IMG/VR virus record: IMGVR_UViG_3300005436_000031
Coordinates: 1 to 27,174 of that record
DNA: 27,174 nt
Strand: one strand, 5' to 3'
Source of the DNA: a virus
Position numbers and translations under genes: made by a program. Positions within the stretch are counted from its first letter, which is position 1; each line of letters begins with the position of its first letter. Under the pieces are notes generated by a model, which ran no database searches, had not been told where the DNA came from, and worked only from the letters and a program-made list of their open reading frames with translations. Shown here piece after piece: positions 4,433 to 20,129 of this stretch.

Positions 4433-4960
4433 ATGGTTACCAAGAAGGAAACACCCCCTAGCACCACGGAAGACCCGTGGGGCGTGGAGCAGGGCTTCTC
4501 TACTGAGGCTCCTGTGATTGAGTTCCCGAACGAGCGGGACTTTCTGACTGTGACCCTGAAGGCTGGCGGAGGTTATGATGCTCCCTGGCTGGTGGCCCAC
4601 GCCAACAGTGTTGAAGAGGCTCTGGAGTTCCTTCAGCACGAGCAGCTTGATGAGCTGATGGACCTGACTGCCCGCAAGGCGAAGGAACTGGCGCGTGCTT
4701 TCGGTGGCGCTCCGGTGGTCGCTAAGCCTGCGGTGGGTGCTAGCAGTGGCTACAAGAAGCCTGTGGCTTCCGGTGGGTCTACGGACCTTCCTGAGGACAA
4801 CTGCCCGGCTCACAACTGTCCGCTGGTCCACGTTGAGGGTTTCACCAACCCGAAGACCGGTAAGACCATCTCGGCTCGCGTAGCGTGCCCGGTTCCGAAC
4901 TGCCGCAAGCTCACCTACTGGCAGGAGCCTGATGGTTCCTGGACCCGCAAGGAGCAGTAA
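4433..4960 (+). CDS. zinc-ribbon protein, possible ssDNA-binding protein
   Basis: 175 residues. A core with TVTLKAGGGYDAPW (39-52) is followed by a helix and a Gly/Ala/Pro linker, then a C-terminal zinc ribbon with C124-x4-C129 and C152-x4-C157. Small actinophage proteins with a similar TVxxGxGYDxxW core are, to my memory, sometimes annotated as ssDNA-binding, which fits the neighbouring nuclease and helicase, but this is inference. The same core recurs in the 67-residue protein at 12025-12228. ATG at 4433 is preferred for the GAAGGG before it; an in-frame ATG at 4421 lacks one. Confidence 0.75.
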   Translation: MVTKKETPPSTTEDPWGVEQGFSTEAPVIEFPNERDFLTVTLKAGGGYDAPWLVAHANSVEEALEFLQHEQLDELMDLTARKAKELARAFGGAPVVAKPAVGASSGYKKPVASGGSTDLPEDNCPAHNCPLVHVEGFTNPKTGKTISARVACPVPNCRKLTYWQEPDGSWTRKEQ

Positions 4961-4962
4961 TA

Positions 4963-5439
4963 GTGTCGGTGTTCATTGACAAGAACGACAATCTTCGGAT
5001 TGGGCGTATCGCTACCGCTGTGGTGGCCAGCTTGCTGGCCATCATCCTGTTCTTCTTCAGTCTGTCCGTAGGCTTTGGTGCCTACGGTCGCTGGAGCAAG
5101 GTTCAGGAGGCGAAGAACAAGGCTCAGACGGCGCGTATCGACGCGGCCAACCAGGCTCAGGTCAATCAGCTTCTGATCAACTCTGCTGACCAGCAGATCC
5201 AGATTCACCAGAAGCAAGCTCAGATCCGTCTGGCTGACGCTGTGGGTATCCGTGAGGCGCAGGATGAGGTCTCCAAGACCCTGACTCCGCTGTACGTCCA
5301 GTTCGAGATGGTTGACGCTCTGAAGACCATCGCTGAGAGTGGCAAGAACAACACGGTGGTGTATATCCCGACCGGCGCGAATGGTATTCCGCTGATCAGC
5401 AACACCGACCAGACACAGGTCGGTACTCCGAAGGGCTAA
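4963..5439 (+). CDS. membrane-anchored coiled-coil protein with SPFH-like tail
   Basis: 158 residues. One transmembrane segment (about 16-41), then an Ala/Gln/Lys-rich coiled coil (45-95), then a tail reading VDALKTIAESGKNNTVVYIP and PTGANGIP. This tail resembles the C-terminal end of SPFH (prohibitin/stomatin) proteins, but the SPFH core domain is missing. GTG start with AAGGAG 8 nt upstream; 2 nt after the previous stop. It could tether a replication or recombination complex at the membrane. Function unknown. Confidence 0.75.
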   Translation: MSVFIDKNDNLRIGRIATAVVASLLAIILFFFSLSVGFGAYGRWSKVQEAKNKAQTARIDAANQAQVNQLLINSADQQIQIHQKQAQIRLADAVGIREAQDEVSKTLTPLYVQFEMVDALKTIAESGKNNTVVYIPTGANGIPLISNTDQTQVGTPKG

Positions 5440-5442
5440 CCT

Positions 5443-5664
5443 TTGAAGATCTACCTATTCCAGGATGTCCATGTCAGTGACTTCAACTACCACTCCAGTG
5501 GGTCTGTTCTGGTCATTGCCGCAACCGATGGGGAAGTGAAGGCTCTGCTAGAGCCTACTGAGGTGCGGCTGGACGAGGAAGACTGGAAGCATGTTCGAAC
5601 CTTCCCGACCCACCAGTACATTCCGAAGGAAGTGTTCATCTTTCCGGACGCAGGGTGCTGCTAG
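5443..5664 (+). CDS. hypothetical protein, 73 aa
   Basis: TTG start 3 nt after the previous stop; AAGGG lies upstream. The sequence starts MKIYLFQDVHVSDFNYHSSG and looks like a small beta-rich domain; no family recognised. It ends directly before the ATPase gene start, which suggests coupled translation with that gene. Confidence 0.7.
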   Translation: MKIYLFQDVHVSDFNYHSSGSVLVIAATDGEVKALLEPTEVRLDEEDWKHVRTFPTHQYIPKEVFIFPDAGCC

Positions 5665-6438
5665 TTGAGTTTCAAGCTCGCTCGCGCTGTTAGGCGGGGG
5701 CTCACGAACGGTGAGCCCCTTCCGGATGTGTTCCGATCCTTCAAGGATCGAGGGATTCGGTTCTATCGGGGCACCACAGCCCTGTTCGTGGGCTCTTCTG
5801 GTTCTCTGAAGACCATGTTTGTCGGTGAGATGGTGGACCGTATGAAGGTCCCGACCCTCTACATCAGCAATGATACCAACGAGCTAGACCAGGTGGCAAG
5901 GTACCTCGCACGGCGCACCAAGCAGGACTCTGAGATCATGCGTGAGAAGGCCCTGAAGCGCCCTGAGTGGGCTGCTGAGGTCTTGTCCGACCAGGACTGG
6001 GTGCGCTGGTCCTTCGACCCTTCTCCGTCCCTTGAGGACATCGAGGAGGAGATCACAGCGTTCGAGGAACTGTGGGGGGACAACCCTCACCTGGTGATCG
6101 TTGACATTCTGATGAAGGTGGACTACTATGAAGAGGGTGGTGGCTCGCTAGAGTCCATCGCCCGCTACCTGGACAAGCTGGCTCGCGAAACCGGTGCATG
6201 CATCGTCATGATTCACCACGCGAGTGAGAATGAGCCCGGTAAGCCCTGTCCTTCGAAGAAGTCCATCCTTTACAAGGTGGATAAGTTCGCGGTCACCATC
6301 ATCACGACAGCCTTCATCGATGGGTTCTTCTACGCGGCTCCTGTGAAACTGCGAAACGGCAAGTCTGACCCATCCGGTGAGACATTTGTCATGTTTGAAG
6401 TAGATCCGTCCATCGCAACATTCAAGGAGCTAGAATGA
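5665..6438 (+). CDS. DnaB/RecA-like ATPase, probable replicative helicase
   Basis: 257 residues. A single RecA-fold core: Walker A GSSGSLKT (43-50), Walker B HLVIVDIL (D147), and VMIHHASE (182-189), whose His fits the sensor position of DnaB and RepA-type helicases. There is no DnaB N-terminal domain, and the length matches short phage DnaB-like/RepA helicases. The start is TTG immediately after the upstream TAG. The zinc-finger and Toprim primase ORFs follow 0.55 kb downstream, as expected for a phage replisome. A RecA-like recombinase role is possible but less likely given the HH motif. Confidence 0.85.
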   Translation: MSFKLARAVRRGLTNGEPLPDVFRSFKDRGIRFYRGTTALFVGSSGSLKTMFVGEMVDRMKVPTLYISNDTNELDQVARYLARRTKQDSEIMREKALKRPEWAAEVLSDQDWVRWSFDPSPSLEDIEEEITAFEELWGDNPHLVIVDILMKVDYYEEGGGSLESIARYLDKLARETGACIVMIHHASENEPGKPCPSKKSILYKVDKFAVTIITTAFIDGFFYAAPVKLRNGKSDPSGETFVMFEVDPSIATFKELE

Positions 6439-6656
6439 GCCGGTGGCTCAAGCATCATGAGGGTCCGATGTATCGTGTGGTGATCGAAAACCACGTATCG
6501 GACCACAAGACATATTACGGTCCGTATAGCCAGCTGAAGACCGCCAAGGGCGTTCTGACCAACGAGCTGAACAGCTGGTGGAACCGTAACCGTGAGGTAC
6601 CCAACACGGGGTACATCGAAGAGACACAGACACAGTGGTATAGGCTCGATGGCTAA
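6435..6656 (+). CDS. hypothetical protein, 73 aa
   Basis: ATGA overlap with the helicase-like gene. The product is basic and rich in Trp, Tyr and His (SRWLKHHEGPMYRVVIENHV). No recognised domain. It overlaps the next gene by 8 nt. Confidence 0.72.
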   Translation: MSRWLKHHEGPMYRVVIENHVSDHKTYYGPYSQLKTAKGVLTNELNSWWNRNREVPNTGYIEETQTQWYRLDG

Positions 6657-7005
6657 TGCAAACAAGCAGTACGGAAGCGGCTTTGAGACAGACACTGTTG
6701 ATTATCTCAGAGGCCGAAACCAGGTTGCGAGCCGCATTGCGCGAACTGTCCCTGATGAAGGAGACGTTGTTCTTGGAGATGCGGAGTTCATCCTCCAGCT
6801 CAAGGCCAACCGGGACGCCAACACCTCAGCTTCACTGGGATCTCGTCTCGAATCCGCCAGAAAGCAAGCCCTTCAGTACGCCAAGGCGCGTTCTCTCGAA
6901 CGTTCCCCCGTACCTCTACTACTGATCAAGAATCCACGCAAGTCCATTGGCAAGGCCTTTGTGGTCATGTACCTTGAGGACTTTGTAGATGACAGCACGC
7001 TTTAG
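6649..7005 (+). CDS. Holliday-junction-resolvase-like nuclease
   Basis: 118 residues. The N-terminal GSGFETDTVDYL (E13), a following D39, and FILQLK (Q50, K52) follow the order E, D, (E/Q)xK of archaeal Hjc-type and related PD-(D/E)XK resolvases. The C-terminal half carries the SARKQALQYAK helix and PLLLIKNPRKSIGKAFVVMY strand seen in such folds. It would cut branched replication or recombination intermediates. The start at 6649 overlaps the previous stop; the frame is open earlier but that part lies in the preceding gene. Confidence 0.7.
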   Translation: MANANKQYGSGFETDTVDYLRGRNQVASRIARTVPDEGDVVLGDAEFILQLKANRDANTSASLGSRLESARKQALQYAKARSLERSPVPLLLIKNPRKSIGKAFVVMYLEDFVDDSTL

Positions 7006-7345
7006 GATCGAACCGATCCTTGAGGAGTTCGGGGCGTCTATCACGCCCCGTTCTTCTAAGATCAACTGTCCGTTTCACGATGACCAGAATGCCTCTGGCT
7101 ACATCCCCGAGTCTCGGGAGTACTTCAAGTGCCTAGCCTGTGGCGTCCAAGGGGACGCTGTGAGGCTCCTACACGACCAGGGAGAGGGGATGAGCTGGCG
7201 TGACGCTTACACAAGAGCAGAGGGTCTTGCTGGAAAGCCAGACGAGTCGGTACCAGAGCAACCTCTACGTCGCGGCCGAGTACCTGGAGGCACGCGGGAT
7301 TACAGAGGACACAGCCGTATGGGCACGGCTAGGAGTGGTAGATGA
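6989..7345 (+). CDS. primase zinc-binding domain ORF
   Basis: 118 residues. A DnaG-type CHC2 zinc finger: C27-x2-H30 and C48-x2-C51 within INCPFHDD and YFKCLACGVQGDAV. Homology-like sequence continues through SWRDAYTRAEGLAGKPDES (about residue 87); the remaining residues are low-complexity Arg/Gly and look like read-through past a frame change. The Toprim part is in a +1-shifted frame starting at 7200. It overlaps the resolvase-like gene by 17 nt. Confidence 0.85.
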   Translation: MTARFRIEPILEEFGASITPRSSKINCPFHDDQNASGYIPESREYFKCLACGVQGDAVRLLHDQGEGMSWRDAYTRAEGLAGKPDESVPEQPLRRGRVPGGTRDYRGHSRMGTARSGR

Positions 7346-7835
7346 CGAGATCCATGGAGATCCCGAAGCAGCCTTTCAGCGTCTCAGCATACCCTACATC
7401 ACGCGGAGTGGAGTTGTCGATCTCCGCTACCGATGCATCCGGTCGCACGACTGTGGTGAGGTGGGCTGTCCCAAGTACCTTGGACGACCTGGCTCGACTC
7501 TTAGGATATACGGCGTTGACGATTTGGTTTCCGCCGGGGACACAATCGCGGTTACTGAAGGAGAGCTGGACAGGCTCATTCTACGCCAGCTTGGACACCC
7601 CGCAGTCGGACTCCCAGGAGCAGAATCTTGGAAGCGACATTGGCACCGACTCTTTGAGGACTTTCAGCGAGTGGTGGTCTTCGGAGACGGGGATGCCGCT
7701 GGAATTCGTTTCATCCGAAAGTTCCAGGACCAGTTCCCGCAGTCGGCGGAAGGTGTTCAGCTTCCTGAAGAGGAGGACGTGAACAGCATGTTCCTCCTAG
7801 AAGGTGGAGACTACTTTGACCGTTACCTACGGTGA
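7200..7835 (+). CDS. primase Toprim (catalytic) ORF
   Basis: 211 residues from a GTG. The Toprim domain is visible: VTEGELD (E120), HPAVGLPG, and FGDGDAAG (D163, D165), the acidic residues that bind metal in DnaG. Residues 17-45 (SRYQSNLYVAAEYLEARGIT) look like the normal continuation of the zinc-finger ORF. A GAGGGG about 10 nt before the GTG could allow separate translation. A pair HDCGEVGCPKY (C85, C90) may bind zinc. Either two subunits form the primase or a +1 frameshift near 7247 joins them. Confidence 0.85.
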   Translation: MTLTQEQRVLLESQTSRYQSNLYVAAEYLEARGITEDTAVWARLGVVDDEIHGDPEAAFQRLSIPYITRSGVVDLRYRCIRSHDCGEVGCPKYLGRPGSTLRIYGVDDLVSAGDTIAVTEGELDRLILRQLGHPAVGLPGAESWKRHWHRLFEDFQRVVVFGDGDAAGIRFIRKFQDQFPQSAEGVQLPEEEDVNSMFLLEGGDYFDRYLR

Positions 7836-11414: not shown

Positions 11415-11580
11415 GCCCGGTTACCCGACCTACCAGGCGGCCGAGAAGGCTCGCAAGTGGCTCAAGAGCCACAACAAGGGTAGGTTCGTGCACGGACTAG
11501 AGACATACGGCCCGTGTGATTGTGGTCAGTACCATCACACAAGCAGTAAGCCGCTAGGCTTAGTGCCAGCTGTTACATAG
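11365..11580 (+). CDS. small zinc-ribbon-like protein, 71 aa
   Basis: Contains ICPITGKPGYPTYQAAEKAR and PCDCGQYHHTSS, a Cys/His pattern typical of small phage zinc-binding proteins that end in CGxxHxTS. GGGAA precedes the ATG. Last gene of the plus-strand operon, ending 3 nt before the terminator hairpin. It overlaps the previous gene by 50 nt. Confidence 0.72.
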   Translation: MPRYRSPQGFICPITGKPGYPTYQAAEKARKWLKSHNKGRFVHGLETYGPCDCGQYHHTSSKPLGLVPAVT

Positions 11581-11583
11581 ACG

Positions 11584-11607
11584 GAGCCCCCTCGCGAGAG
11601 GGGGCTC
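11584..11607. terminator. strong hairpin between convergent operons
   Basis: GAGCCCCCTC and GAGGGGGCTC form a perfect 10-bp stem with a GCGA tetraloop, 3 nt after the last plus-strand stop and 14 nt before the first minus-strand stop. No long U-run follows, as is common in actinobacteria. Likely bidirectional. Confidence 0.8.
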
Positions 11608-11621
11608 TCGTCATTCTCTCG

Positions 11622-11696
11622 TTAGTTTCGCAGGATCAGCCACCAGAAGAAGGCCAGGAAGACGAATCCCAACAAGCTGTCAAGAAAATCCCACAT
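11622..11696 (-). CDS. 24-residue membrane peptide
   Basis: MWDFLDSLLGFVFLAFFWWL is almost all transmembrane helix and ends with LRN. GAGGAG lies 6 nt before the ATG. It fills the space between the terminator and the next minus-strand gene. No family can be assigned at this size. Confidence 0.62.
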   Translation of the reverse strand: MWDFLDSLLGFVFLAFFWWLILRN

Positions 11697-11706
11697 ACCT
11701 GTCTCC

Positions 11707-11841
11707 TCAGGGATGCATGTACTTCAGATGGGCTTCGCCGATCATCCTGGCGTAGTCCTCGGTGCCGTACTCGTTGCCGACCTGTCCGCAGGAACAGCGC
11801 CAGCGGTAGCCGTTAGCTGTCTTCTCTGTCGATATCGACAC
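11707..11841 (-). CDS. small protein with CxC, 44 aa
   Basis: GTG start right after AAGGAGG (spacing about 3-4 nt). The product has YRWRCSCGQVGNEYGTEDYA and ends HLKYMHP; the CxC and late His could bind zinc. Overlaps the preceding gene by 29 nt. The frame is open upstream, but that part is antisense-like and lacks coding character. Confidence 0.65.
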   Translation of the reverse strand: MSISTEKTANGYRWRCSCGQVGNEYGTEDYARMIGEAHLKYMHP

Positions 11842-12025
11842 AATCCTCCTTAGGGAAGCAAAGCGGGCAAGTAGCGTAACGATATCCGTATTGCTTAGCG
11901 TGCTCGTTGTCGTGAATGGTCCAACGGTTCTCGTCTCGCTGATCAGCCTTGTTCCACCCGTTCCGATACTTGTGCTGTCGGGACAGGTTGACTTCAGCAA
12001 TGACCTTCGAGACTTGGGGCTCCAT
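11813..12025 (-). CDS. hypothetical protein with CPLC motif, 70 aa
   Basis: Starts MEPQVSKVIAEVN; basic and hydrophilic, with WTIHDNEHAKQ and TCPLCFPKEDC near the end, a likely zinc site. The ATG shares a base with the previous stop (TGATG), so it is coupled to the paralogue-domain gene upstream. Confidence 0.7.
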   Translation of the reverse strand: MEPQVSKVIAEVNLSRQHKYRNGWNKADQRDENRWTIHDNEHAKQYGYRYATCPLCFPKEDCVDIDREDS

Positions 12026-12228
12026 CAGCGTGCCCGGTTCTGTTCGTGCTTGAAGGCGCCTTGCAGGTTCATAGAGACCCTGCTAGCAGTCTGGGGAACG
12101 TACTTGTTCTCCAGCTCGTTCAAGCGAGCGATGAGCCGGTCCGCAGTGTCAGCCTTAACGATGATCCAAGGAGCATCGTAGCCAGGACCAGCCTTGAGGG
12201 TTACTGTGTAGGGTGCGGTATCTTCCAT
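12025..12228 (-). CDS. 67-residue protein with the GYDAPW core
   Basis: Contains TVTLKAGPGYDAPWIIVKAD, nearly the same as residues 39-58 of the 175-residue protein at 4433-4960, but without the zinc ribbon. It could be a truncated paralogue or a partner competing for the same ligand. TAATG overlap with the upstream gene and TGATG with the downstream one. Confidence 0.78.
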   Translation of the reverse strand: MEDTAPYTVTLKAGPGYDAPWIIVKADTADRLIARLNELENKYVPQTASRVSMNLQGAFKHEQNRAR

Positions 12229-12386
12229 TAGTCGCAATCAGCTCCGTCCACGTACCAGTCGCGTTCGTACTCGGGGAAGTCAGAGAAGGGATCAAGGGGT
12301 CCCATGGGGATCTCGTTAACCTCCTCATCACTCCACGGGTACTCGTCGTCTGGGAAGTACTCCTCATCAGCTTCTTCGGGAGTCAT
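12228..12386 (-). CDS. very acidic 52-residue protein
   Basis: MTPEEADEEYFPDDEYPWSD continues with more Asp, Glu, Tyr and Trp and few basic residues, so it could mimic DNA or bind a basic partner. GGAGAG precedes the ATG by 3 nt. It is the first gene of a five-gene coupled run (12386 down to 11622) and stands behind a stem-loop pair. Confidence 0.75.
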   Translation of the reverse strand: MTPEEADEEYFPDDEYPWSDEEVNEIPMGPLDPFSDFPEYERDWYVDGADCD

Positions 12387-12448
12387 GATCTCTCCTCTCT
12401 AGTATGCCAGTCTGGCACACTCTAAGCCACGCGGCCCGGAGGCCGCGT
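12387..12448 (-). promoter_or_regulatory. double stem-loop module 0
   Basis: First stem 12429-12448: ACGCGGCC/GGCCGCGT, 8 bp, loop TCCG on the minus strand. Second stem 12401-12421: AGTGTGCCAG/CTGGCATACT, 10 bp with one G-U, 1-nt centre. AGAGGAGAG follows, then the ATG. Confidence 0.7.
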
Positions 12449-12461
12449 AGCAAAGGCAGTG

Positions 12462-12695
12462 TCAGCTCTCGTCCAGCCAGTTCTCGATCGCGGTCTTGTG
12501 GTCCTCGCCGTAACCGGCGTAGACCTCTCCCCAGTCGGTGACCTGGCAGTTCTCGTCGGCCGGGAAGATCATGGTCTCGTCGCCCCGGTCGAAGGTGAAG
12601 GCACGGGAAACGGCGTAGTACTTGCCGTCCACCTCGATGTGCCACACGTCACCGTTCCAGCGGATCGTGTCGTCAATCACCTTGTACTCACGCAT
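12462..12695 (-). CDS. small protein, DETM(I/V)FPA family, copy 1 (77 aa)
   Basis: Starts MREYKVIDDTIRWNGDVWHI and contains YYAVSRAFTFDRGDETMIFPA. It is a paralogue of the next gene upstream (12775-13041): both share Y(Y/I)(A)xSR, DETM(I/V)FPA and a C-terminal AIExxL helix. No function is known. AGGAGAG precedes the ATG. Own stem-loop module upstream and another directly after its stop. Confidence 0.8.
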   Translation of the reverse strand: MREYKVIDDTIRWNGDVWHIEVDGKYYAVSRAFTFDRGDETMIFPADENCQVTDWGEVYAGYGEDHKTAIENWLDES

Positions 12696-12761
12696 GACGG
12701 TTCTCTCCTATCTAGTGTATCACCCTGATACACTCCAAGACCTACGGGCCGAAGCCCGTAG
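12696..12761 (-). promoter_or_regulatory. double stem-loop module 1
   Basis: First stem 12742-12761: CTACGGGC-TTCG-GCCCGTAG, a UUCG tetraloop on the minus strand. Second stem 12714-12734: AGTGTATCA/TGATACACT, perfect 9 bp, loop GGG. Then AGGAGAG and the ATG, 18 nt after the stem. Confidence 0.75.
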
Positions 12762-12774
12762 ATCATAGGGCGGA

Positions 12775-13041
12775 TCAGCGCTCGCTGAGGAACAGCTCGA
12801 TGGCCTCCTCGTGCGTCACGTTGGTGTACTTGCCCGGCTCGATGCCGCTGAACAGCACCATGGGCAGGTCGATCTCGCCGTTGCGGGCGGGGAAGACCAT
12901 CGTTTCGTCCACCCCATCGGTGACCTTCGTGGTCCGGGAGGCGATGTACTCCTGCCCGTTCGCGATGAAGCTCACGCGCTCGGCCGTGCCACCGGTCATG
13001 GTGGTCACGCTGTTCCGATCGGTGATCGTGTACGCGGACAT
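12775..13041 (-). CDS. small protein, DETM(I/V)FPA family, copy 2 (88 aa)
   Basis: Starts MSAYTITDRNSVTTMTGG and contains EYIASRTTKVTDGVDETMVF followed by PARNGEI, ending HEEAIELFLSER. It is clearly related to copy 1 over the central and C-terminal parts. AGGAGAG stands before the ATG. Monocistronic layout: a stem-loop module on each side. Confidence 0.8.
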   Translation of the reverse strand: MSAYTITDRNSVTTMTGGTAERVSFIANGQEYIASRTTKVTDGVDETMVFPARNGEIDLPMVLFSGIEPGKYTNVTHEEAIELFLSER

Positions 13042-13103
13042 TTCATTCTCTCCTTAATGCTCGCCTATCTGGCCAGCTTAGCAATGCCCGCGTTTCCACG
13101 GAC
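13042..13103 (-). promoter_or_regulatory. double stem-loop module 2
   Basis: First stem 13086-13103: GTCCGTG-GAAA-CGCGGGC, a GNRA tetraloop with two G-U pairs on the minus-strand RNA. Second stem 13059-13077: GCTGGCC-AGATA-GGCGAGC with one G-G mismatch; the weakest second stem of the set. Confidence 0.6.
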
Positions 13104-13116
13104 ACCACTAGGGAGG

Positions 13117-13347
13117 TCAGATCACGCTGATATCCCAGATTCGATGCGCCTTGGTCAAGAGCAGACGCACGGTGACACCGCGATAGGTGCCGTTGTCGAT
13201 CTCGTACGAGACAGAGCTATCGCTCTGTGTACGGTAGACGTTGCCGTTGTCCAGGTGAACACGCCATGCCGGATTGCCATTCACGCTGTTGTTCAGGCGC
13301 TCCAGATGGGTGATCACACCTTCGTCGGTGTTGGGTGCTTGAGCCAT
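13117..13347 (-). CDS. hypothetical protein, 76 aa
   Basis: Contains LERLNNSVNGNPAWRVHLDN and GVTVRLLLTKAHRIWDI. The pattern of a helix followed by NGNPxWRV strands is one I associate with small actinophage proteins of unknown function. Its ATG overlaps the previous stop (TAATG), so it is co-translated with the YRV-family protein upstream. Followed by a stem-loop module. Confidence 0.78.
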   Translation of the reverse strand: MAQAPNTDEGVITHLERLNNSVNGNPAWRVHLDNGNVYRTQSDSSVSYEIDNGTYRGVTVRLLLTKAHRIWDISVI

Positions 13348-13571
13348 TACAGCTCACGCACGTCGATCGTGACCGAACCGTCCGACATGCAGACGATCAT
13401 GCCCCGGATCCCCGCGTTCTCGGGCAGGCCCATGAATCGGGCCAGCTCACCGGTTTGCTGGGCTTCCCGCAGCACCGCAGCACCCACCGCATGGTTCTGA
13501 GTGGGTGCGTTGACCACGATGGTGTTCTCACCACCGTTGGGCGAAGTCATCTTGACCTCAAAGCTACGCAT
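13347..13571 (-). CDS. YRV-family small paralogue, copy 1 (74 aa)
   Basis: Starts MRSFEVKMTSPNGGENTIVV and contains NAPTQNHAVGAAVLREA. It shares with three other array genes (13650, 13969 and 16243) an initial xVxx strand, a Gly turn, a second strand ending in xxA, and a helix with HAV/RAVxxAxxL. Start at 13571 with AGGAGAG upstream; the frame is open further but covers the leader hairpins. Function unknown. Confidence 0.8.
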   Translation of the reverse strand: MRSFEVKMTSPNGGENTIVVNAPTQNHAVGAAVLREAQQTGELARFMGLPENAGIRGMIVCMSDGSVTIDVREL

Positions 13572-13635
13572 GACATTCTCTCCTATCCTTGCCCGCAACT
13601 TACGGACATGAAGCTGTACGGTAAAACCGTACAGC
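13572..13635 (-). promoter_or_regulatory. double stem-loop module 3
   Basis: First stem 13613-13635: GCTGTACGGT/ACCGTACAGC, perfect 10 bp, 3-nt loop. Second stem 13590-13608: TGTCCGTAA/TTGCGGGCA, 9 pairs with two G-U on the minus strand, 1-nt centre. AGGAGAG then the ATG. Confidence 0.72.
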
Positions 13636-13649
13636 AACAAGAGCGTAGG

Positions 13650-13889
13650 TTACAGCTCTTCCACGCGGAGGTCGGTGACCTCCTCGCCGATGACCTGGGC
13701 GATGTTGCTCATGATCGCCTCCGGTCCCATGGTGTCGAACACGATGCGGGCGATCTTGCTGCCCACGGCGGTCACGCCGCCCAGGGTGGCACCAGCCAGG
13801 AACACGGCCCGGAGCGGGTTTTCCGCCTCGATCTCGGTCGAGTCCTCGGTGCCGTCCATGGTGATCGACACGCGATAGACGTTGGACAT
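13650..13889 (-). CDS. YRV-family small paralogue, copy 2 (79 aa)
   Basis: Starts MSNVYRVSITMDGTEDSTEI and has EAENPLRAVFLAGATLGG then a C-terminal VIGEEVTDLRVEEL. The closest relatives in the window are the genes at 13969 and 16243. The third ATG of ATGATCATG (13889) is chosen because it lies 8 nt from AGGAG. No known function. Confidence 0.8.
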   Translation of the reverse strand: MSNVYRVSITMDGTEDSTEIEAENPLRAVFLAGATLGGVTAVGSKIARIVFDTMGPEAIMSNIAQVIGEEVTDLRVEEL

Positions 13890-13957
13890 GATCATCTCTC
13901 CTTCGCTAGTTGCTTGCCTTCTGGCAAACATGGAAGCACACATCTTGCGATGTGCGC
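13890..13957 (-). promoter_or_regulatory. double stem-loop module 4
   Basis: First stem 13936-13957: GCGCACATC-GCAA-GATGTGTGC, 9 bp with a GNRA tetraloop and one G-U. Second stem 13912-13929: GTTTGCC-AGAA-GGCAAGC, 7 bp with one G-U. AGGAGAG follows. Confidence 0.72.
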
Positions 13958-13968
13958 AACCACGCTGG

Positions 13969-14232
13969 TCAGAGAGTCAGCGTTACCGAAGTGTTCATGT
14001 GTCGCGAGATGTTGTGCATGAACAGCTCACCCTGTTGCGGGTCCTCCACCGTGCGGAGGGCTTCGGCCATCACCGCGATGCCAGCCAGGAACGCCGCGTG
14101 AGCGATGCTTCCGGCCATGATCGACAGGTCAGCGGCCACCGTGCCGTCAGTCATGGTGCACACCACGCGGTACATGTGGGTGTCCACCTCAACGTCAGCA
14201 CATGCAGGCAAGGCGTCCTGGTTGTCGAACAT
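13969..14232 (-). CDS. YRV-family small paralogue, copy 3 (87 aa)
   Basis: After a 19-residue N-terminal extension, MYRVVCTMTDGTVAADLSIM and AHAAFLAGIAVMAEALRTVE align with copies 2 and 4. Two ATGs are adjacent (14235, 14232); 14232 fits the GAGGGG site better. An internal ATG at residue 20 would give a protein matching the other copies in length. Function unknown. Confidence 0.78.
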   Translation of the reverse strand: MFDNQDALPACADVEVDTHMYRVVCTMTDGTVAADLSIMAGSIAHAAFLAGIAVMAEALRTVEDPQQGELFMHNISRHMNTSVTLTL

Positions 14233-14295
14233 CATTCTCCCCTCTGTTCGCACCCTGCGAACATGGCGACCACTCCGCCCCGTGACGGAGTGATC
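14233..14295 (-). promoter_or_regulatory. double stem-loop module 5
   Basis: First stem 14268-14295: GATCACTCCGTC/GGCGGAGTGGTC, 12 pairs with two G-U, loop ACGG. Second stem 14245-14263: TGTTCGCA/TGCGAACA, perfect 8 bp, 3-nt loop. GAGGGGAG follows. Confidence 0.72.
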
Positions 14296-14309
14296 ACTAC
14301 GAACACAGG

Positions 14310-14498
14310 CTACTGCTGTTCGATGCCGCACGCCTCCAAGAATCGCGCCCTGTCAAAGCGCGGATTGTCAATCACGAACACGGTTGCTAGACCGCTCGCG
14401 ATGGCCTCCAGTGCGGCTTCCGCACTGTCCAGGTTGTAGTCGCCCACCTCCTTGATCACGGCCGCCATGTCACGGTATTGCTTGCGAGACATGGACAT
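14310..14498 (-). CDS. hypothetical helical protein, 62 aa
   Basis: Starts MSMSRKQYRDMAAVIKEVGD; mostly helical with ATVFVIDNPRFDRARFLEA. GAGGAG lies 7 nt before the ATG, and the upstream stop is 1 nt away, so it is co-translated with the zinc-ribbon gene. No known family. Confidence 0.75.
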   Translation of the reverse strand: MSMSRKQYRDMAAVIKEVGDYNLDSAEAALEAIASGLATVFVIDNPRFDRARFLEACGIEQQ

Positions 14499-14499
14499 G

Positions 14500-14742
14500 T
14501 TACATCTCCTCGATGGTTGCGGTGTGCCTGGTTCCGTGAAGAGTCTGCCCACAGGCCGCACAAGGCGTCCGGGAGAAGTCCTCCTCGTCGTCACCAGGGA
14601 TGATGTACTCGTTGGGTTCCAGCTTGCCCAGAAGGCCAGCCGGATGCTCCTCGCCCTGCTCATCAAGCTCACAGCAGGTGCAAGGCTCACCATACGCCGC
14701 TGCGAACAAGCAGCACGTACAGATCTTGACAGGGTAGGACAT
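14500..14742 (-). CDS. Cys-rich zinc-binding protein, 80 aa
   Basis: Has ICTCC and CTCCELDE near the N-terminus and FSRTPCAACGQTLHGTRHTA near the C-terminus. The last pattern (F-x-x-x-C-x2-CG...RH) is common in small actinophage zinc ribbons. Up to seven Cys could hold one or two zinc ions. TGATG overlap with the upstream gene. Confidence 0.8.
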   Translation of the reverse strand: MSYPVKICTCCLFAAAYGEPCTCCELDEQGEEHPAGLLGKLEPNEYIIPGDDEEDFSRTPCAACGQTLHGTRHTATIEEM

Positions 14743-14921
14743 CAGTACAACCCTGCCTCGTTGAGCGCCCAACCGTACACGGCACCCTTGAGCTTGTCGT
14801 TGTCCACGCCCAGCTCGTTCAAGAGTGTAACAATGTCCTGAAGGGACGAGTTGTCCACCAGGTTTTGAAACACGTCTTGCGCATCGCTGTCCAGGATCAC
14901 GACGGACTCATGCACTTGCAT
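14742..14921 (-). CDS. hypothetical acidic protein, 59 aa
   Basis: Starts MQVHESVVILDSDAQDVFQN; helical, acidic and leucine-rich, possibly oligomeric. Two adjacent ATGs (14924, 14921); the second has the better spacing to AGGAG. First gene of a three-gene coupled run. Confidence 0.72.
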   Translation of the reverse strand: MQVHESVVILDSDAQDVFQNLVDNSSLQDIVTLLNELGVDNDKLKGAVYGWALNEAGLY

Positions 14922-14986
14922 CATCCTCTCCTTTCTAGATCCACTGATAGGATCTGGGCGAAGCACATGCCCTTCGGGGCATGTGC
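14922..14986 (-). promoter_or_regulatory. double stem-loop module 6
   Basis: First stem 14963-14986: GCACATGCCC-CGAA-GGGCATGTGC, perfect 10 bp. Second stem 14937-14955: AGATCC/GGATCT, perfect 6 bp, 7-nt loop. AGGAGAGG then the ATG. Confidence 0.72.
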
Positions 14987-15001
14987 ATCACTCGCTACCG
15001 A

Positions 15002-15706
15002 TCAGTAGTCTTCGTCCTCCTCGTAGTCGTTGTACCAGTCCTCCTCCGGCTCCTCGTCGTCGTCCTCGGCCCACTGGCCGTCGCGACCCTCCACGAACGG
15101 CACGTCGTGCTGGTGCTGCTCGTTGTAGGCCGCCTCATCGGCGAGGAACAGTTCCGCCCAGACGGTGGCGATCTTCTCCACCCGACGCTTGGCCAGGATC
15201 GGAGTAGCGGCGTCACGCGCCGCGATCGGTGCCTCCATCAGCTCCCTGCGGATCTTCTCGCGCAGTTCCACCCGCTCGGGGTAGCTGAGCTGCGGGTTGG
15301 CGTCGGTGGCGGCGTCCTGCCGCTGGTACAGCACGTCACGGGCGTCGTTCACGAGCTTGTAGTACGGAGCCGTCGCGGCGTCGTACTCGTTGTCGATCAC
15401 GTTGACCCGCTCGCCGAACTGCTTGTAGGCGCCGTAGCTGAGCAACTGCTCAGCGGCCCACCACCAGTCCCAGTCCTGAGCCTGGCCCACGGCCAGCTCC
15501 TTCGTGACCTCGACGGACACGGGGAACCGGTCCATGAAGCGGTGCCGGTACTCGGAGCACGGACGGTTGCGGAGAACCATGTCCCTGGTCAGCACGCGGC
15601 TGGTGGGGATCTTGGCGGCCTCCGCGAGGGCGGCCTTACGCTCCTCTTCGGCCTTCTGGCCGAGCTTGCAGGAGTCACACGGGCAACCCTCGATGTAGTA
15701 CGTCAT
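15002..15706 (-). CDS. hypothetical acidic protein, 234 aa
   Basis: The largest product of the minus-strand array. N-terminal GCPCDSCKLG (C-x-C-x2-C, probable metal site), a long helical and Trp-rich middle (DWDWWWAAEQLLSYGAYKQF), and a highly acidic C-terminus (DDDEEPEEDWYNDYEEDEDY). No recognised family; an acidic tail of this kind could bind basic proteins or mimic DNA. The ATG at 15706 is preferred over the GTG three codons earlier, which touches the GGGAGAG site. Visibly G+C-rich third codon positions. Confidence 0.85.
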   Translation of the reverse strand: MTYYIEGCPCDSCKLGQKAEEERKAALAEAAKIPTSRVLTRDMVLRNRPCSEYRHRFMDRFPVSVEVTKELAVGQAQDWDWWWAAEQLLSYGAYKQFGERVNVIDNEYDAATAPYYKLVNDARDVLYQRQDAATDANPQLSYPERVELREKIRRELMEAPIAARDAATPILAKRRVEKIATVWAELFLADEAAYNEQHQHDVPFVEGRDGQWAEDDDEEPEEDWYNDYEEDEDY

Positions 15707-15783
15707 GCTGATCACTCTCCCTGAATGGGTTTTGTATACCGACTGGCATACATGAAGAAGGTCATGCCCCGAAGGGCATGACC
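15707..15783 (-). promoter_or_regulatory. double stem-loop module 7
   Basis: First stem 15760-15783: GGTCATGCCC-TTCG-GGGCATGACC, perfect 10 bp with a UUCG tetraloop on the minus strand. Second stem 15733-15752: TGTATGCC/GGTATACA, 8 pairs with one G-U, loop AGTC. GGGAGAG follows. Confidence 0.75.
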
Positions 15784-15807
15784 ATCCTCACGAGTAACAG
15801 TAGGTTA

Positions 15808-16164
15808 CTACAGCGTGACCCCGAAGAAGCCCAGCGCGCCGTCCTCGGCCGCCTTGACGTGGGTCATGGGCTCCGGAGCGGTGCCCAGCATGCTGTCCGT
15901 CAGCTCACCGTTGCGGTAGGCGTGGAACAGCCACTGCTCGCCGGTCGGGTACACCTTGCCCACCGTCCCGCCGCCGACCTTGGCCACGGAGATCTTCCAG
16001 TCACCGACCTCGTCGGTGCCGGTCACGTCGTACTCGGACTCGGTCCGGTACTCGGCGAAGTAGTCCGTGGGCTCGATCGGGCCCAGCAGGGACGCCAGCA
16101 GGGACATGAAGTCCTCACCGTTGTCGTAGCTGCCGTTGGCCTCAGCGTTGCACAGCTCGCACAT
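15808..16164 (-). CDS. hypothetical protein, 118 aa
   Basis: N-terminal MCELCNAEANGSYDNGEDFM has a CxxC; the middle is beta-rich (WKISVAKVGGGTVGKVYPTG). Ends GALGFFGVTL. No recognised family. AGGAGAG lies 6 nt before the ATG; monocistronic between two stem-loop modules. Confidence 0.8.
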   Translation of the reverse strand: MCELCNAEANGSYDNGEDFMSLLASLLGPIEPTDYFAEYRTESEYDVTGTDEVGDWKISVAKVGGGTVGKVYPTGEQWLFHAYRNGELTDSMLGTAPEPMTHVKAAEDGALGFFGVTL

Positions 16165-16233
16165 GTCAATCTCTCCTCTCTACCAACCAGACCAGTTCTG
16201 ATTGGTCACTAGCGGCCACCATAGGTGGCCACT
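16165..16233 (-). promoter_or_regulatory. double stem-loop module 8
   Basis: First stem 16211-16233: AGTGGCCACC/GGTGGCCGCT, 10 bp with one G-U, 3-nt loop. Second stem 16182-16206: ACCAATCAGA/TCTGGTTGGT, 10 bp with one G-U, 5-nt loop. AGAGGAGAG follows. Confidence 0.75.
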
Positions 16234-16242
16234 CGAAACCCG

Positions 16243-16479
16243 TCAGTTAGTCTCGATGACGGCATACACGTTGGTCACTTCACCAGCGACCAGCCATCGG
16301 CCGATCTCCTGTGCGTTTTCGTTGCCGGTACCAGCCATGGCAAGCATGGTGGCTTCAGCTACGGCGTGGTGATCGTTGTTGGCCTCGACCCATAGGGTCG
16401 TGCTGTCCACTTTGGGACGGCCCAGGACCGTACGAACGATGTGACCGTTGTAGAACGTCACTCGGTAGCAGTTCATCAT
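16243..16479 (-). CDS. YRV-family small paralogue, copy 4 (78 aa)
   Basis: MNCYRVTFYNGHIVRTVLGR, then LWVEANNDHHAVAEATMLAM and AGEVTNVYAVIE near the end, matching copies 1-3 in the same order. Three consecutive ATGs (16482, 16479, 16476); the second is chosen on spacing to AGGAG. It is the first gene of the minus-strand array. Function unknown. Confidence 0.78.
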   Translation of the reverse strand: MMNCYRVTFYNGHIVRTVLGRPKVDSTTLWVEANNDHHAVAEATMLAMAGTGNENAQEIGRWLVAGEVTNVYAVIETN

Positions 16480-16519
16480 CATGCTCTCCTTTCAGTGAGG
16501 CCACTGAGCTTATGCTCAG
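16480..16519 (-). promoter_or_regulatory. double stem-loop module 9, overlapping stems
   Basis: CTGAGC-ATAA-GCTCAG (16504-16519) and TCAGTG-GCCT-CACTGA (16492-16507) share four bases, so only one can form at a time. The second stem is followed by AGGAG and the start. This is the head of the array, with no gene upstream on this strand. Confidence 0.6.
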
Positions 16520-16570
16520 GGACCTAGAACAACCGACAGGGAGAGCAGGCGACTGGGTCGCCACCCTGCC

Positions 16571-16675
16571 GATCATTCTTCAAGGAGAGAGAATGATCAT
16601 TATCCCAGTTGCCATGGAGTCTGGGGTTCCACAGGCGCTGTCCTAGTCAGGGTCAAGGGGCAATTCTTGCACCCC
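16571..16675 (+). CDS. candidate 17-codon minigene with hairpin-held RBS
   Basis: The coding part is 16593-16646, product MIIIPVAMESGVPQALS. AAGGAGAG is in the loop of a perfect 9-bp hairpin GATCATTCT/AGAATGATC (16571-16598), whose 3' arm contains the ATG. A bulged hairpin (16657-16675) follows the stop like a terminator. It could be a regulatory leader peptide. Only the arrangement supports it; such a short frame could be chance. Confidence 0.35.
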
Positions 16676-17015
16676 AGGTCTTAGCTAGGCGGCATTCCCG
16701 CCTTCACCGCTTCTCAGGGTCGCCCCTCAGCGGATCGTCATTGCACTAGCAGCCGTACTAGACTTGCCCCGGTCGCAACCGGTGCGCTCCCCACAAGTGG
16801 ATCATGGCGCACTCTACAGGCAAGACGCTCGGTACTACTAGCGTCGCCCGGCCCTCCCGGTCTTGCTGGGCTGGCCTGACACCGAGAACACTCCTCCTGT
16901 TGGCCCTCGTCGTCAAGTCACGAGTTGGTAACGATTGTTTTCCCAGGTTACAGGCTATTTCGTTATCAAAAAGAGATTGATCAACATCACACCTTGTTCA
17001 CACCTTGATGCTCCC
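16676..17015. other. non-coding stretch, left part
   Basis: No credible gene on either strand. Holds short inverted repeats AGGCGG/CCGCCT (16687-16703) and GACGCT/AGCGTC (16824-16845), a TAACGA/TCGTTA pair flanking an AT-rich patch (about 16926-16967), and the tandem repeat TCACACCTTG at 16987-16996 and 16998-17007. Confidence 0.6.
16987..17007 (+). repeat. tandem direct repeat TCACACCTTG, period 11
   Basis: Two exact 10-nt copies separated by one base, so they lie on the same DNA face. Possible protein-binding pair. Confidence 0.6.
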
Positions 17016-17445
17016 AACCAAGCACTTGCTTGGTTATTCATGAACTGGGACATTGCAGGCTCTGCCCAGGTCAGAGCCATCAACACATGAATGGGTTCTT
17101 TGCCATCTCTTTACCTTCGCCCGTGCCAGCTCCCCGTGGATCATGGTTTTGGGGCACGCTCTCAGGGCTCCACAAGAGCCCTGTAATCCCAGGTCAGACC
17201 TGGTTCTATGCCTGCCCGCTGGCAGGCTCTCAGCGTGGCTCCTAGGCCCTGTCTCGGTGGCAGTCCGGACGGTGCGAGCGAGCGCCCCACGCGAGCGAGC
17301 ACATATACCGCGCGCGCATGTGTGTGATCCCTTCCAGCTCGTGCGATGATCATTGCATTGTGCAATGGTCCACAACAATGACAGTGGGCAATGTGAAACA
17401 TTGCCTCATGAGACTATGCACTGCATAGACCATTCATCACATGAA
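17016..17445. repeat. field of perfect inverted repeats
   Basis: Successive unrelated hairpins: AACCAAGC/GCTTGGTT (17016-17035), GGCTCTG/CAGAGCC (17058-17078), CAGGGCTC/GAGCCCTG (17163-17183), CCAGGTC/GACCTGG (17189-17203), GCCTGCC/GGCAGGC (17210-17227), CATTGCA/TGCAATG (17351-17367), GGCAATGT/ACATTGCC (17387-17405), CTATGCA/TGCATAG (17414-17428), TTCAT/ATGAA (17433-17445). Nearly all are perfect over 7-8 bp. Also a direct repeat GCGAGCGAGC at 17274 and 17291, and an alternating CG run at 17309-17317. No gene seen. Confidence 0.75.
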
Positions 17446-17832
17446 CAATCCTCTCGCGCGCACGCGCGTGGGCACGTGGGATGTAGCAACCTTGTTAAAC
17501 ACTTGACAATGGTCATTCAACGGCTGCATACAGGCGCAATAGCGCGTCATACATGTGTCAATGCCTGTGCAATGGACGAATACCAAGTGGATGTCAAGCG
17601 CTTGTCAACATGCATGCCCATCCATGTACATCACGAGCATGTCAAGTGCTTGAGCATGTAAGGCCCAAGGCCAGGCTGCGCCGCTTACAATCATCGGTGC
17701 TTGTCAAGGCCTGTATCAGCCTATTGTCAACCCCGGCATGTTAAACCACAGCCACGTTCGGTCGTGCTGCAACCTTCAAAATATTTGCTAAACCAAGTAA
17801 CGGCTAGGTCACAACGATAGTATGCGTTAGCT
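17446..17832. other. non-coding stretch, right part
   Basis: No credible gene. Contains palindromes CACGCGCGTG (17461-17470) and CAAGCGCTTG (17595-17604), GCGC-AATA-GCGC (17534-17545), and six plus-strand copies of TGTCAA between 17556 and 17730. Confidence 0.6.
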
Positions 17833-17883
17833 GGACACACTAGGACACACTGACAGCTCTATGGTAACAGTTTGGTAACGGTT
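17833..17883 (+). repeat. two pairs of helical-period direct repeats
   Basis: GGACACACT(A/G) occurs at 17833-17842 and 17843-17852 (period 10). TGGTAAC(A/G)GTT occurs at 17862-17872 and 17873-17883 (period 11). A further TTGGTAACGATT lies near 16923. These look like binding sites of a regulator or replication initiator just upstream of the late leader. Confidence 0.6.
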
Positions 17884-17920
17884 TGAGATACGACCGTGAG
17901 AGGCCCTGTTATCACGTACT

Positions 17921-18185
17921 TATATATAATGAAGGGTAAGTATAGGAGTCGAGCGGGCTAGCGAGACTCCTCACGGAGAGAGCCCCAGGCTCGACTCCAA
18001 CCTAGTAAGGCAGCCCTTAGGGGGCTGCCTATAGAAGCTTCTTAGAGACTCACACCATCACTGGTGTTCGTCTAGGAGGGGCTTAGCCCCCTCCTTAAAT
18101 GGTTCCCCCACGATGCAGAGCATCATGAGGAGCGGACCAGAAGTCCGCCCCCAAAGGACCCCCACTGACACCATAGGATAATTGC
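17921..18185 (+). promoter_or_regulatory. AT-rich -10-like box and structured leader or ncRNA before terminase
   Basis: TATATATAAT (17921-17930) is the most AT-rich spot nearby; no -35 is found at normal spacing. From the expected start (about 17937) the RNA would fold into a nested hairpin closed by GGAGTCGAGC/GCTCGACTCC (17945-17998), then AGGCAGCCC/GGGCTGCCT (18008-18030), ACACCA/TGGTGT (18052-18067), AGGAGGGG/CCCCTCCT (18074-18095, terminator-like), GATGC/GCATC (18112-18124) and GCGGAC/GTCCGC (18132-18148). It is either a long leader of the late operon or a separate RNA ending near 18096. Confidence 0.6.
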
Positions 18186-20129
18186 ATGCCTCCAAAGATT
18201 GAATGGTCTACTGCGGACAAGCAGAGGATCCTGCTTGAAAAGCTCGCAGCTGGCTGGTCTGTGGAGCGTGCTTGTGAATTCGTTGGCATTTCTGTAAAGA
18301 CATATGAGTATTGGCGCAGTGGCTCCAAGGGAGCCGGTGGCGCTATGAATGCTCAGCAGTTCCGCGATGCAGCAGAACGCATCCGCTCCAAGCAGTCTGG
18401 GGAGCACTTCTCCGAAGTGCCTGACTTCGAGACCTTCTCGAAGGTGTACATGGGTAACCGTCTGTTCGACCATCATCAGCAGTGGCTGGATTTGCTTGAG
18501 GGCCGTGATCCTCGCAACCTCCACCCGTCACAGACATACATCCCCGGACGTAAGAATCTTCTCCTGATCAACACGCCGCCTCACCATGCCAAGAGTGAGA
18601 TGTTCTGCCAGAACTACGTGACATGGCGTATCGTCCAGGATCCTAACATCCGTGTCCTTCTGGTGTCCGCTAGTGCGGACCGTGCCAAGAAGAACTTGGA
18701 TGGAATTAAGAACCGCCTCGACAAGGACATGCTGGTCTACAAGCAGCTGAAGGATGACTTCGCTCCTGCTGAAGGCTACAATGGCAATGGTGCCAGGTGG
18801 CAGGCTGACATGATCCTTGTGAACCCGGACATCCGTCCCCGCAATGTATCGGGGCACCCTACGGTGCAGGCTCTAGGTATTCGTAAGAAGATCTATGGTG
18901 CCCGTGCCGACCTCATTATTCTTGATGACTGTGCCGACCTCGACAACGCTCATGAGTTCCCGAAGCAGATCGAGTGGATCCAGTCTATCATCGGTTCCCG
19001 CCTTGAGCCGGGAACAGGTAAGCTTATTATCGTTGGCACCCGACTCGCTGCCCAGGATCTGTACTCCGAGATCCGAAAGCCAGAGTGGTATGTCACCGGG
19101 GAGTCCCCCTTCACTTATCTGTCCCAGCCCGCTGTGCTGGAGATGCATGATGATCCCGAGGATTGGGTTACCCTGTGGCCATGGACCAACGTTGAGCCTA
19201 TGGGACTCGACAAGGTTGAGCCCAATGAACAGGGCCTATATCCCATGTGGAACGGGCCGGCTCTTGCCGAGAAGCGCAATCAGATGAGTGCGGAGACTTG
19301 GTCTCGTGTTTACATGCAAGCTCAGATCAGCCAGTCTACCACCTTCACACAGGCCGAAATCGACGGGTGTACCAATGGCGGACGACTTCCCGGTGTTATT
19401 GTCCCTGGTTTTCCTGGTGTCCGTCCAGAAGGAATGGCGGGGCTTTATGTGGTTGCAGGGCTTGACCCGGCAGCCACCAACTACACAGCTATGGTTGTCG
19501 TGGGAGCAGATCTCTCTACCGGCCGTAGATATGTTCTAGATGTTTGGAATCAGCACGGAGCCCTTCCCGCTCAAACAGCGGCGGTTATGAAGGAATGGAC
19601 TCGACGTTACGGAGTGAATGAATGGCGCATCGAATCCAACGCCTACCAGGCTAGTATCCTCCAGGACGAGGACCTGAGAACCTGGATGGCATCCAGGGGT
19701 GTCCGTATGTCCGCACACACGACAGGAAAGAACAAGTGGGATACACAGTGGGGTGTGGCTACGATGGCCAACCTGTTCAAGGGACACGAACAGGGACACA
19801 ACGCCATCGAGCTTCCGTCCCGAAGGAACCACGCTGGAATCCAAGCCCTTGTCGAGCAGCTGGTTGCCTGGTACCCTACGCCTACCATGAACAAGGCGCC
19901 TGTCCAGGACTGCGTGATGGCTCTGTGGTTTTGCGAGATTCGCTGCCGCGAACTTCTCGACTTCCAGGATGGCTCCGCGCACTGGGACGCAGGCTGGCTT
20001 TCCGAGCGCGAACGTGAAGAGCAAGTAGTAATCAACATCGACTGGTACCAGGCCTCACAGGGCTTCTCAAGTATGCCCGACCTACCAGAGCCGACTATCG
20101 TTAATGACGCCCGCTGGTGGGAGGGTTAA
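18186..20129 (+). CDS. terminase large subunit with N-terminal HTH
   Basis: 647 residues. The ATPase half carries a Walker A-like NTPPHHAKSE (129-138) and Walker B LIILDD (243-248). The nuclease half begins with AGLDPAATNY (D427) and IESNAYQA (E483), as in phage DNA-packaging motors of the Terminase_6 type. Residues 9-45 (QRILLEKLAAGWSVERACEF then VGISVKTYEYW) form a helix-turn-helix like that of small terminase subunits; no separate small subunit is visible nearby. It would cut and pump genomes into proheads through the portal encoded next. ATAGGAT precedes the ATG. Confidence 0.96.
   Translation: MPPKIEWSTADKQRILLEKLAAGWSVERACEFVGISVKTYEYWRSGSKGAGGAMNAQQFRDAAERIRSKQSGEHFSEVPDFETFSKVYMGNRLFDHHQQWLDLLEGRDPRNLHPSQTYIPGRKNLLLINTPPHHAKSEMFCQNYVTWRIVQDPNIRVLLVSASADRAKKNLDGIKNRLDKDMLVYKQLKDDFAPAEGYNGNGARWQADMILVNPDIRPRNVSGHPTVQALGIRKKIYGARADLIILDDCADLDNAHEFPKQIEWIQSIIGSRLEPGTGKLIIVGTRLAAQDLYSEIRKPEWYVTGESPFTYLSQPAVLEMHDDPEDWVTLWPWTNVEPMGLDKVEPNEQGLYPMWNGPALAEKRNQMSAETWSRVYMQAQISQSTTFTQAEIDGCTNGGRLPGVIVPGFPGVRPEGMAGLYVVAGLDPAATNYTAMVVVGADLSTGRRYVLDVWNQHGALPAQTAAVMKEWTRRYGVNEWRIESNAYQASILQDEDLRTWMASRGVRMSAHTTGKNKWDTQWGVATMANLFKGHEQGHNAIELPSRRNHAGIQALVEQLVAWYPTPTMNKAPVQDCVMALWFCEIRCRELLDFQDGSAHWDAGWLSEREREEQVVINIDWYQASQGFSSMPDLPEPTIVNDARWWEG

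Follow-up and report, generated by a model that had tools for sequence, protein, structure and literature searches.

Recurrent two-stem leader RNAs with a candidate pseudoknot before the small genes of a Beephvirinae-like phage array

Why would a phage place pairs of stem-loops, alike in shape and different in sequence, before most of the small genes of one array, each time just upstream of the Shine-Dalgarno (SD) sequence? This question arises from the minus-strand array of the virus record IMGVR_UViG_3300005436_000031, which we analysed as one stretch of 27,174 bases (the window). Ten gaps of the array hold such an element, and we confirmed that the observation is real and that it reflects RNA structure on the minus-strand transcript. 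We suggest, with a probability of roughly 0.4, that the element is one cis-acting structured leader RNA that acts post-transcriptionally, at translation initiation.

Ten elements on the minus-strand RNA

The minimum free energy of each gap on the minus strand was compared with 200 dinucleotide shuffles, and the z-scores ranged from -3.4 to -7.8, with at most 2/200 shuffles equally low. The plus strand folded more weakly than the minus strand in 10/10 gaps. Using a strand-neutral fold restricted to Watson-Crick pairs and counting symmetric mismatches, nine window elements presented 9 G.T, 1 A.C, 8 T.T, and 0 A.A mismatches. Relatives agreed, with 78 G.T vs. 11 A.C in 62 elements from related contigs and 38 vs. 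10 in 42 Beephvirinae elements. Since G-U outnumbers A-C and the minus strand folds better, the element is a structure at the RNA level.

In all ten gaps, two stems (picked jointly per element) are followed by an SD, which reads AGGAGAG in 8/10 and GGGAGAG or GGGGAGA in the other two. The stems are 0-2 nt apart in the window, and stem 1 is a very stable hairpin, one per gene, with UUCG, UCCG, or GNRA-type loops. The initial annotation had proposed the same double stem-loop layout before small genes, folding at the RNA level, imperfect pairs that are G-U on the minus strand rather than A-C, and pairing kept while the letters differ. These claims held, and stem sequences vary both among modules and among homologous leaders; the AGGAGAG that it placed behind every double stem is the SD of eight gaps. 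Two stem-loops were not the full layout: the stems adjoin, and the annotation had missed a U.U or UU/UU internal loop in stem 1 and a pairing in which the loop of stem 2 meets the sequence around the stop codon of the preceding gene.

The layout is also present in related viral contigs (L004, L007, L011, L095, L096, L098, L100, L101, L102, and L104) and in cultured Streptomyces phages of the Beephvirinae, namely Immanuel3, Dennebes, FlowerPower, Stella, Abafar, WRightOn, Manuel, and RosePharie. Stem 1 usually has 8-11 bp above its internal loop. Symmetric 2x2 internal loops were UU/UU in 36/41 cases, and the commonest 1x1 loop was U/U (18); judged by eye, tandem G.U pairs often replace an absent U.U. 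The gap between the stems was 0 nt in 94 of the 123 scored elements, and about 8 nt (sd 4.4) separate the end of stem 2 from the SD. When a descriptor of the element was scanned over 1105 SD sites of the fetched loci, where phages outside both groups were represented by terminase relatives only, it matched 95 times vs. 5 in shuffles. All loci with at least two matches belonged to Beephvirinae phages or to relatives of the window, with their matches on one strand.

Pairing across stem 1

Ahead of stem 1 lies a 5′ segment (A), and its complement (A′) lies in the stem-2 loop; their pairing would form an H-type pseudoknot with stem 1 inside its first loop. In Beephvirinae, this pseudoknot pairing scored below -5 in 41/42 elements, and in 41/41 of those A, a segment of 5-7 nt, was located 4-6 nt 5′ of stem 1. 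In many cases A overlaps the stop codon of the preceding gene. True partners reached -5 in 98% and -7 in 74% of cases, compared to 41% and 12% for swapped partners. In a flank-swap test, in which stem 1 was fixed beforehand and the 5′ flanks were exchanged among elements, Beephvirinae gave z -11.0 (0/2000), the relatives of the window z -6.4 (0/2000), and L007 together with L011 z -3.0 (4/2000). With an earlier and looser score, the window reached 38/5000, and a set of 34 elements, one per homologous Beephvirinae leader, reached 0/5000.

Compensatory changes were seen in homologous Beephvirinae leaders, in line with the RNA structure first proposed. Leaders of ardA carry the matched A/A′ changes CUAGUG/CACUAG, CCGAGU/ACUCGG, and CCAGU/ACUGG, and a second leader family carries UGGCU/AGCCA, UAGCU/AGCUA, CGGCU/AGCCG, GUGAGUC/GACUCAC, and GUGAGCC/GGCUCAC. 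In an alignment of four phages (A2), 94.8% of the cells were paired, 8 pairs had changed on both sides, and the covariation score was 0.493 vs. 0.222 in shuffles (0/500). Slid versions were 31-43% paired; four sequences are a small sample, and this control is biased towards the structure, which was drawn up from the very same four. The MAFFT alignments A1 and A3 misplace some rows by 1-2 columns at A or A′, and A2 alone was counted. Compensatory loop-to-flank pairing thus points to an H-type pseudoknot in Beephvirinae and in part of the relatives' elements; in the clade of the window itself, only some of the elements carry the A:A′ pairing.

The ten window elements, all on the minus strand, illustrate this variation. 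I4 (14937-15008, gap 15001-14925, before g4 at 14924-14742; z -4.2) has stem 1 at 14991-14958 with a U.U mismatch and stem 2 at 14955-14937. Its A, ACUGAU, overlaps the g3 stop codon and pairs with AUCAGU of the stem-2 loop, no swapped loop scores equally, and we regard it as the clearest predicted pseudoknot of the window. I3 (15734-15803, gap 15807-15707, before g3 at 15706-15002; z -7.8) has stem 1 at 15790-15753, with a U.U mismatch and a UUCG loop, and stem 2 at 15751-15734; its candidate A, ACUG within 15803-15792, faces CAGU of the stem-2 loop (pseudoknot score -6.4, not significant alone). I11 (13059-13123, gap 13116-13042, before g11 at 13041-12775; z -5.6) has tandem G.U wobbles and a GAAA loop in stem 1 (13110-13079) and an AGAUA loop in stem 2 (13077-13059). 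Its AUCUG at the stop faces CAGAU with a score of 12.0, and 15% of the swapped loops were equally good. I12 (12714-12780, gap 12774-12696, before g12 at 12695-12462; z -3.4) has a U.U mismatch and a UUCG loop in stem 1 (12768-12735) and stem 2 at 12734-12714; CUGAU, located at the stop 5 nt 5′ of stem 1, is complementary to AUCAG.

I8 (13912-13976, gap 13968-13896, before g8 at 13895-13650; z -5.4) presents a UU/UU internal loop and a GCAA loop in stem 1 (13962-13931) and stem 2 at 13929-13912, with a possible pairing of UCUG at the stop to CAGA (pseudoknot score -6.5). I7 (14245-14313, gap 14309-14235; z -5.3) precedes a gene starting at about 14232; its stems are at 14297-14266 and 14263-14245, and a CCUG/CAGG pairing is possible, giving a weak pseudoknot. 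I9 (13590-13640, gap 13649-13572, before g9 at 13571-13347; z -4.2) has a UU/UU internal loop in stem 1 (13640-13609) and stem 2 at 13608-13590; a pseudoknot was looked for in it and none was found. I1 (16498-16574, gap 16602-16483, before g1 at 16482-16243; z -6.1) has a longer, irregular stem 1 at 16574-16527 and stem 2 at 16525-16498. The stems of I2 (16182-16235, gap 16242-16165, before g2 at 16164-15808; z -4.6) are at 16235-16209 and 16206-16182. Finally, I13 (12401-12455, gap 12461-12387, before g13 at 12386-12228; z -4.9) has a UU/UU internal loop and a UCCG loop in stem 1 (12455-12422) and stem 2 at 12421-12401.

A sibling contig (L083 and L097), about 98% identical to the window over the array, served as a natural experiment. 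Six elements are unchanged (one base differs in I2), stem 1 of I4 is swapped for a different hairpin between identical flanks, and stem 2 of I1 is replaced by another hairpin. The sibling also has an extra gene exactly within I13 (window 12387-12461), flanked by the repeat AGTGTGCCAG and encoding a lipoprotein-like product of 92 residues. Both of its junctions offer 5-bp A:A′ pairs (CUGAC/GUCGG and CUAGU/ACUGG), whereas the hybrid I13 junction of the window has only 3 bp and is mismatched; these pairs were scored on hand-chosen segments, and the automatic search preferred a longer stem 2 without the pairing. Loss of the cassette in the window lineage, a direction that we infer, would explain an I13 without a pseudoknot.

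The elements may also be regarded as sites of gene gain and loss, as with this cassette. I13 further belongs to a recurrent type, shared with L007, L095, L098, and L101, in which GACACTGCC precedes stem 1 and stem 2 contains GAGTGTGCCA. In this type, ACACU could alternatively pair with AGUGU of the 5′ arm of stem 2, and an alternative fold may exist.

A leader acting on translation and its alternatives

If the element acts at translation initiation, its domains would follow one another as A, a very stable stem 1 (with a U.U or UU/UU loop, or tandem G.U), an adjoining stem 2 with A′ in its loop, about 8 nt, and the SD. Once the upstream ribosome departs from the stop codon, A would be free to pair with A′, and the leader could then fold into a compact block, with the following SD left accessible and the gene insulated from the sequence before it. 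A ribosome still on the stop would prevent this pairing by occupying A. That the element acts on translation, in which direction it does so, and whether a terminating ribosome takes part are our inferences. Compared with shuffled upstream sequence, the SD was predicted to be slightly more open in Beephvirinae (0.55 vs. 0.43, p 1e-6) and in the relatives (0.56 vs. 0.48, p 6e-4). Moreover, the pseudoknot of the bacterial timP mRNA is required for translation initiation (PMC11228461).

Several results weigh against this interpretation. The window alone was not significant in the flank-swap test (z -0.9, 408/2000), so that its A:A′ signal is significant by the looser score and not by the stricter one; general complementarity of its A to any part of stem 2 was weaker (p 0.07). 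Pseudoknot scores below -5 were found in 56% of the relatives' elements vs. 29% in swaps, and thus many elements of this clade may lack the pseudoknot. Related phages contribute to most of the swap and scan counts, whose events are therefore not independent. In the window, SD accessibility showed no predicted gain over shuffled upstream sequence, and where a gain is predicted it is modest. Besides, the SD stays free in this structure and the sequence accordingly reveals no switch, and the pseudoknots of intergenic-region internal ribosome entry sites are dispensable for activity in E. coli (PMC9458429).

The main rival, ranking next after action on translation, is a role in mRNA stability or processing, which we consider rather improbable. 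Stem 1 would protect the upstream 3′ end and the pseudoknot would shield the next message from 5′-3′ decay by RNase J, or stem 1 would be an RNase III site. A very stable hairpin per gene with UUCG, UCCG, or GNRA-type loops suits such a role, and the conserved UU/UU internal loop could serve recognition or cleavage. In the T7 early region, RNase III sites are likewise hairpins with an internal loop between consecutive phage genes, without an adjoining second stem or pseudoknot; of such a processing signal, the elements described here show the internal loop only. Viral exonuclease-resistant RNAs (xrRNAs), which are pseudoknotted, can halt bacterial RNase J1 in vitro (PMC5760640). The flaviviral ones share a compact pseudoknotted RNA with the phage elements (PMC5760640), but their feature is a three-way junction with a ring around the 5′ end, whereas the phage elements are known as predicted stems plus a pseudoknot. 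A decay barrier would not need the short distance to the SD that is kept here. The initial annotation had considered a cut or an end between the stems that would give each gene its own mRNA. Such a cut is disfavoured because the stems adjoin (0-2 nt) and a pairing spans stem 1 in the relatives, leaving no cleavable linker between them; nor is there a promoter signal between genes or a U tail behind stem 1.

Its description of every module as a transcription unit found no backing. A sigma-70-type promoter scan of 11600-18190, which phage-specific promoters would escape, returned 2 sites vs. 2.0 expected, both within genes. A transcription element, with stem 1 as a terminator lacking a U tail or the hairpin pair as a put-like antiterminator setting the polarity of the array, is unlikely. 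It would fit one element per gene, terminators without poly-U are known in Streptomyces phages, as reported for phiC31, and the put RNA of HK022, with conserved nucleotides, also consists of two adjacent stem-loops and acts on RNA polymerase. The likeness seen is this adjacency, and put occurs once per operon, unlike the repeated elements. As to termination, a G+C-rich hairpin is present and the U-rich tail is absent (T fraction 0.23 in the 8 nt after stem 1), terminator-like matches in the region numbered 3 vs. 3.3 in shuffles, with one among the ten elements, and some ten serial terminators without intervening promoters would silence the distal genes.

We consider it just as unlikely that the element is an operator read by a phage or host RNA-binding protein that co-regulates the whole array. 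The operator-like RNA site of the initial annotation survives in one form: the strong variation in sequence disfavours a protein that reads letters, and one that reads shape could use the conserved UU/UU loop and the pseudoknot. The stem sequences vary freely, and no RNA-binding protein candidate was found among the searched proteins, a subset. A DNA-level feature, in which the stems would be palindromic operators or sites where cassettes recombine and their folding as RNA a by-product, is very improbable: the cassette difference with the sibling falls exactly within I13 at AGTGTGCCAG, but ordinary homologous recombination explains an exchange at this repeat. Folding that favours one strand, the strand-specific excess of G-U over A-C, the A:A′ covariation across stem 1, and the fixed position relative to the SD all speak for RNA.

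Known systems resemble the proposed leader in part. In the repZ gene of ColIb-P9 (IncI-type), a hairpin loop pairs with a strand farther downstream, and an inhibitory helix covers the SD. This loop-to-strand pseudoknot near the SD is tied to a terminating upstream ribosome, as is proposed for the phage elements, but these have the opposite polarity and an SD that is not covered. The timP mRNA shares an upstream pseudoknot in a bacterial message (PMC11228461); it is a single toxin gene with a small RNA antitoxin, whereas here one element stands before each gene in phage operons and no antisense RNA is known. Closest in position and genome context are the Start-Associated Sequences and their extended form (SAS/ESAS) of cluster K mycobacteriophages, repeated just 5′ of many translation starts, about half with an inverted repeat; their function is unknown and a role in translation initiation was proposed (PMC3203893). 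Both are repeated features before many actinophage genes. What SAS/ESAS keep is sequence, in the form of a 13-bp repeat and of 17-bp inverted repeats, whereas the phage elements keep a shape, with two stems, a U.U loop, and a pseudoknot in relatives. The 13-bp SAS repeat GGGATAGGAGCCC, which is located at the start codon, was absent from the ten window leaders, and these had no sequence-conserved 17-bp inverted repeats like those of ESAS, the stems differing among modules and among homologous leaders.

Structured leader RNAs are a known kind of element that normally occurs singly; unusual here is the repetition before many genes of an array, with the shape conserved rather than the sequence. 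A search by sequence only would miss a feature whose letters are not kept. Rfam 15 returned six tRNAs only for the whole window at the gathering score, and a search of the array with E values up to 1 added two miRNA-type matches by chance, both far below that score. A literature search, which left most subscription journals outside, did not find the element described. It is a more doubtful proposal that the leaders form an undescribed pseudoknotted RNA family before most array genes of Beephvirinae-like Streptomyces phages, making each gene an independent, ribosome-sensing translation unit in a polycistronic mRNA, with the fold conserved and the sequences kept diverse, perhaps limiting recombinational gene loss. 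If the proposed mechanism holds, it would show how expression can be set gene by gene in a phage that has few promoters for its many small genes, and it would supply Streptomyces with portable leader parts. Pseudoknots as translation insulators also become tractable to test, as several of the phages are in culture and laboratory hosts are available.

The gene array and its relatives

The array served by the elements spans 12228-16482 on the minus strand. Translation confirmed the coordinates of its genes, although the starts of g5 and g7 used in the folding analysis were off by 1-2 nt. Genes g5, g6, and g10 have no element, and each lies at most 2 nt from its upstream gene or overlaps it. A Pfam search with ten array proteins gave no match, and neither did a search for the g3 protein in phages. 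The window also encodes a DNA polymerase, a DnaB-like helicase, a portal, and a terminase (18186-20129) with 44-45% identity to those of cultured Streptomyces phages, most of them classed as Beephvirinae. No near DNA match was found in cultured phages, either by megablast with the window or by distant blastn with 11500-17800. The terminase had no match in genome contigs, hence no prophage link to a host, and the ArdA protein of Immanuel3 had a single match in viral contigs, at 100%. Among the related contigs, L004, L007, and L011 were found by a terminase scan and L094-L107 by a conserved 19-base motif 5′ of the array.

In the window (16580-16602, minus strand) and in the 14 contigs L094-L107, ATGATCATTCTCTCTCCTTGA, located 5′ of the array, forms a conserved reading frame of six codons. 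A CU-rich stretch within this frame is complementary to the SD, and a leader peptide or an anti-SD is possible. Sequestration of the SD by a 5′ CU segment was seen in single folds, e.g., I1, and by eye it is not general. In L004, several TTGACA boxes at 4700-5060 (minus strand), in the interval between terminase and array, are candidate array promoters that make a long transcript starting there plausible.

Two further leader arrangements were noticed in related phages. L011 presents six modules (4600-7400, minus strand) with nearly identical A and stem 2 (CUGUGA/AUCACAG), which are sequence repeats, unlike those of the window. A long hairpin leader of another type stands before one gene in L082 (38397-38501) and recurs in the same gap of L084-L090, which are also Beephvirinae; its CUCUCUCCCCC-type loop faces an AGGAGGA SD, and it looks like a separate regulatory leader. 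Finally, the six tRNA genes of the window are clustered at 44-632 on the minus strand.

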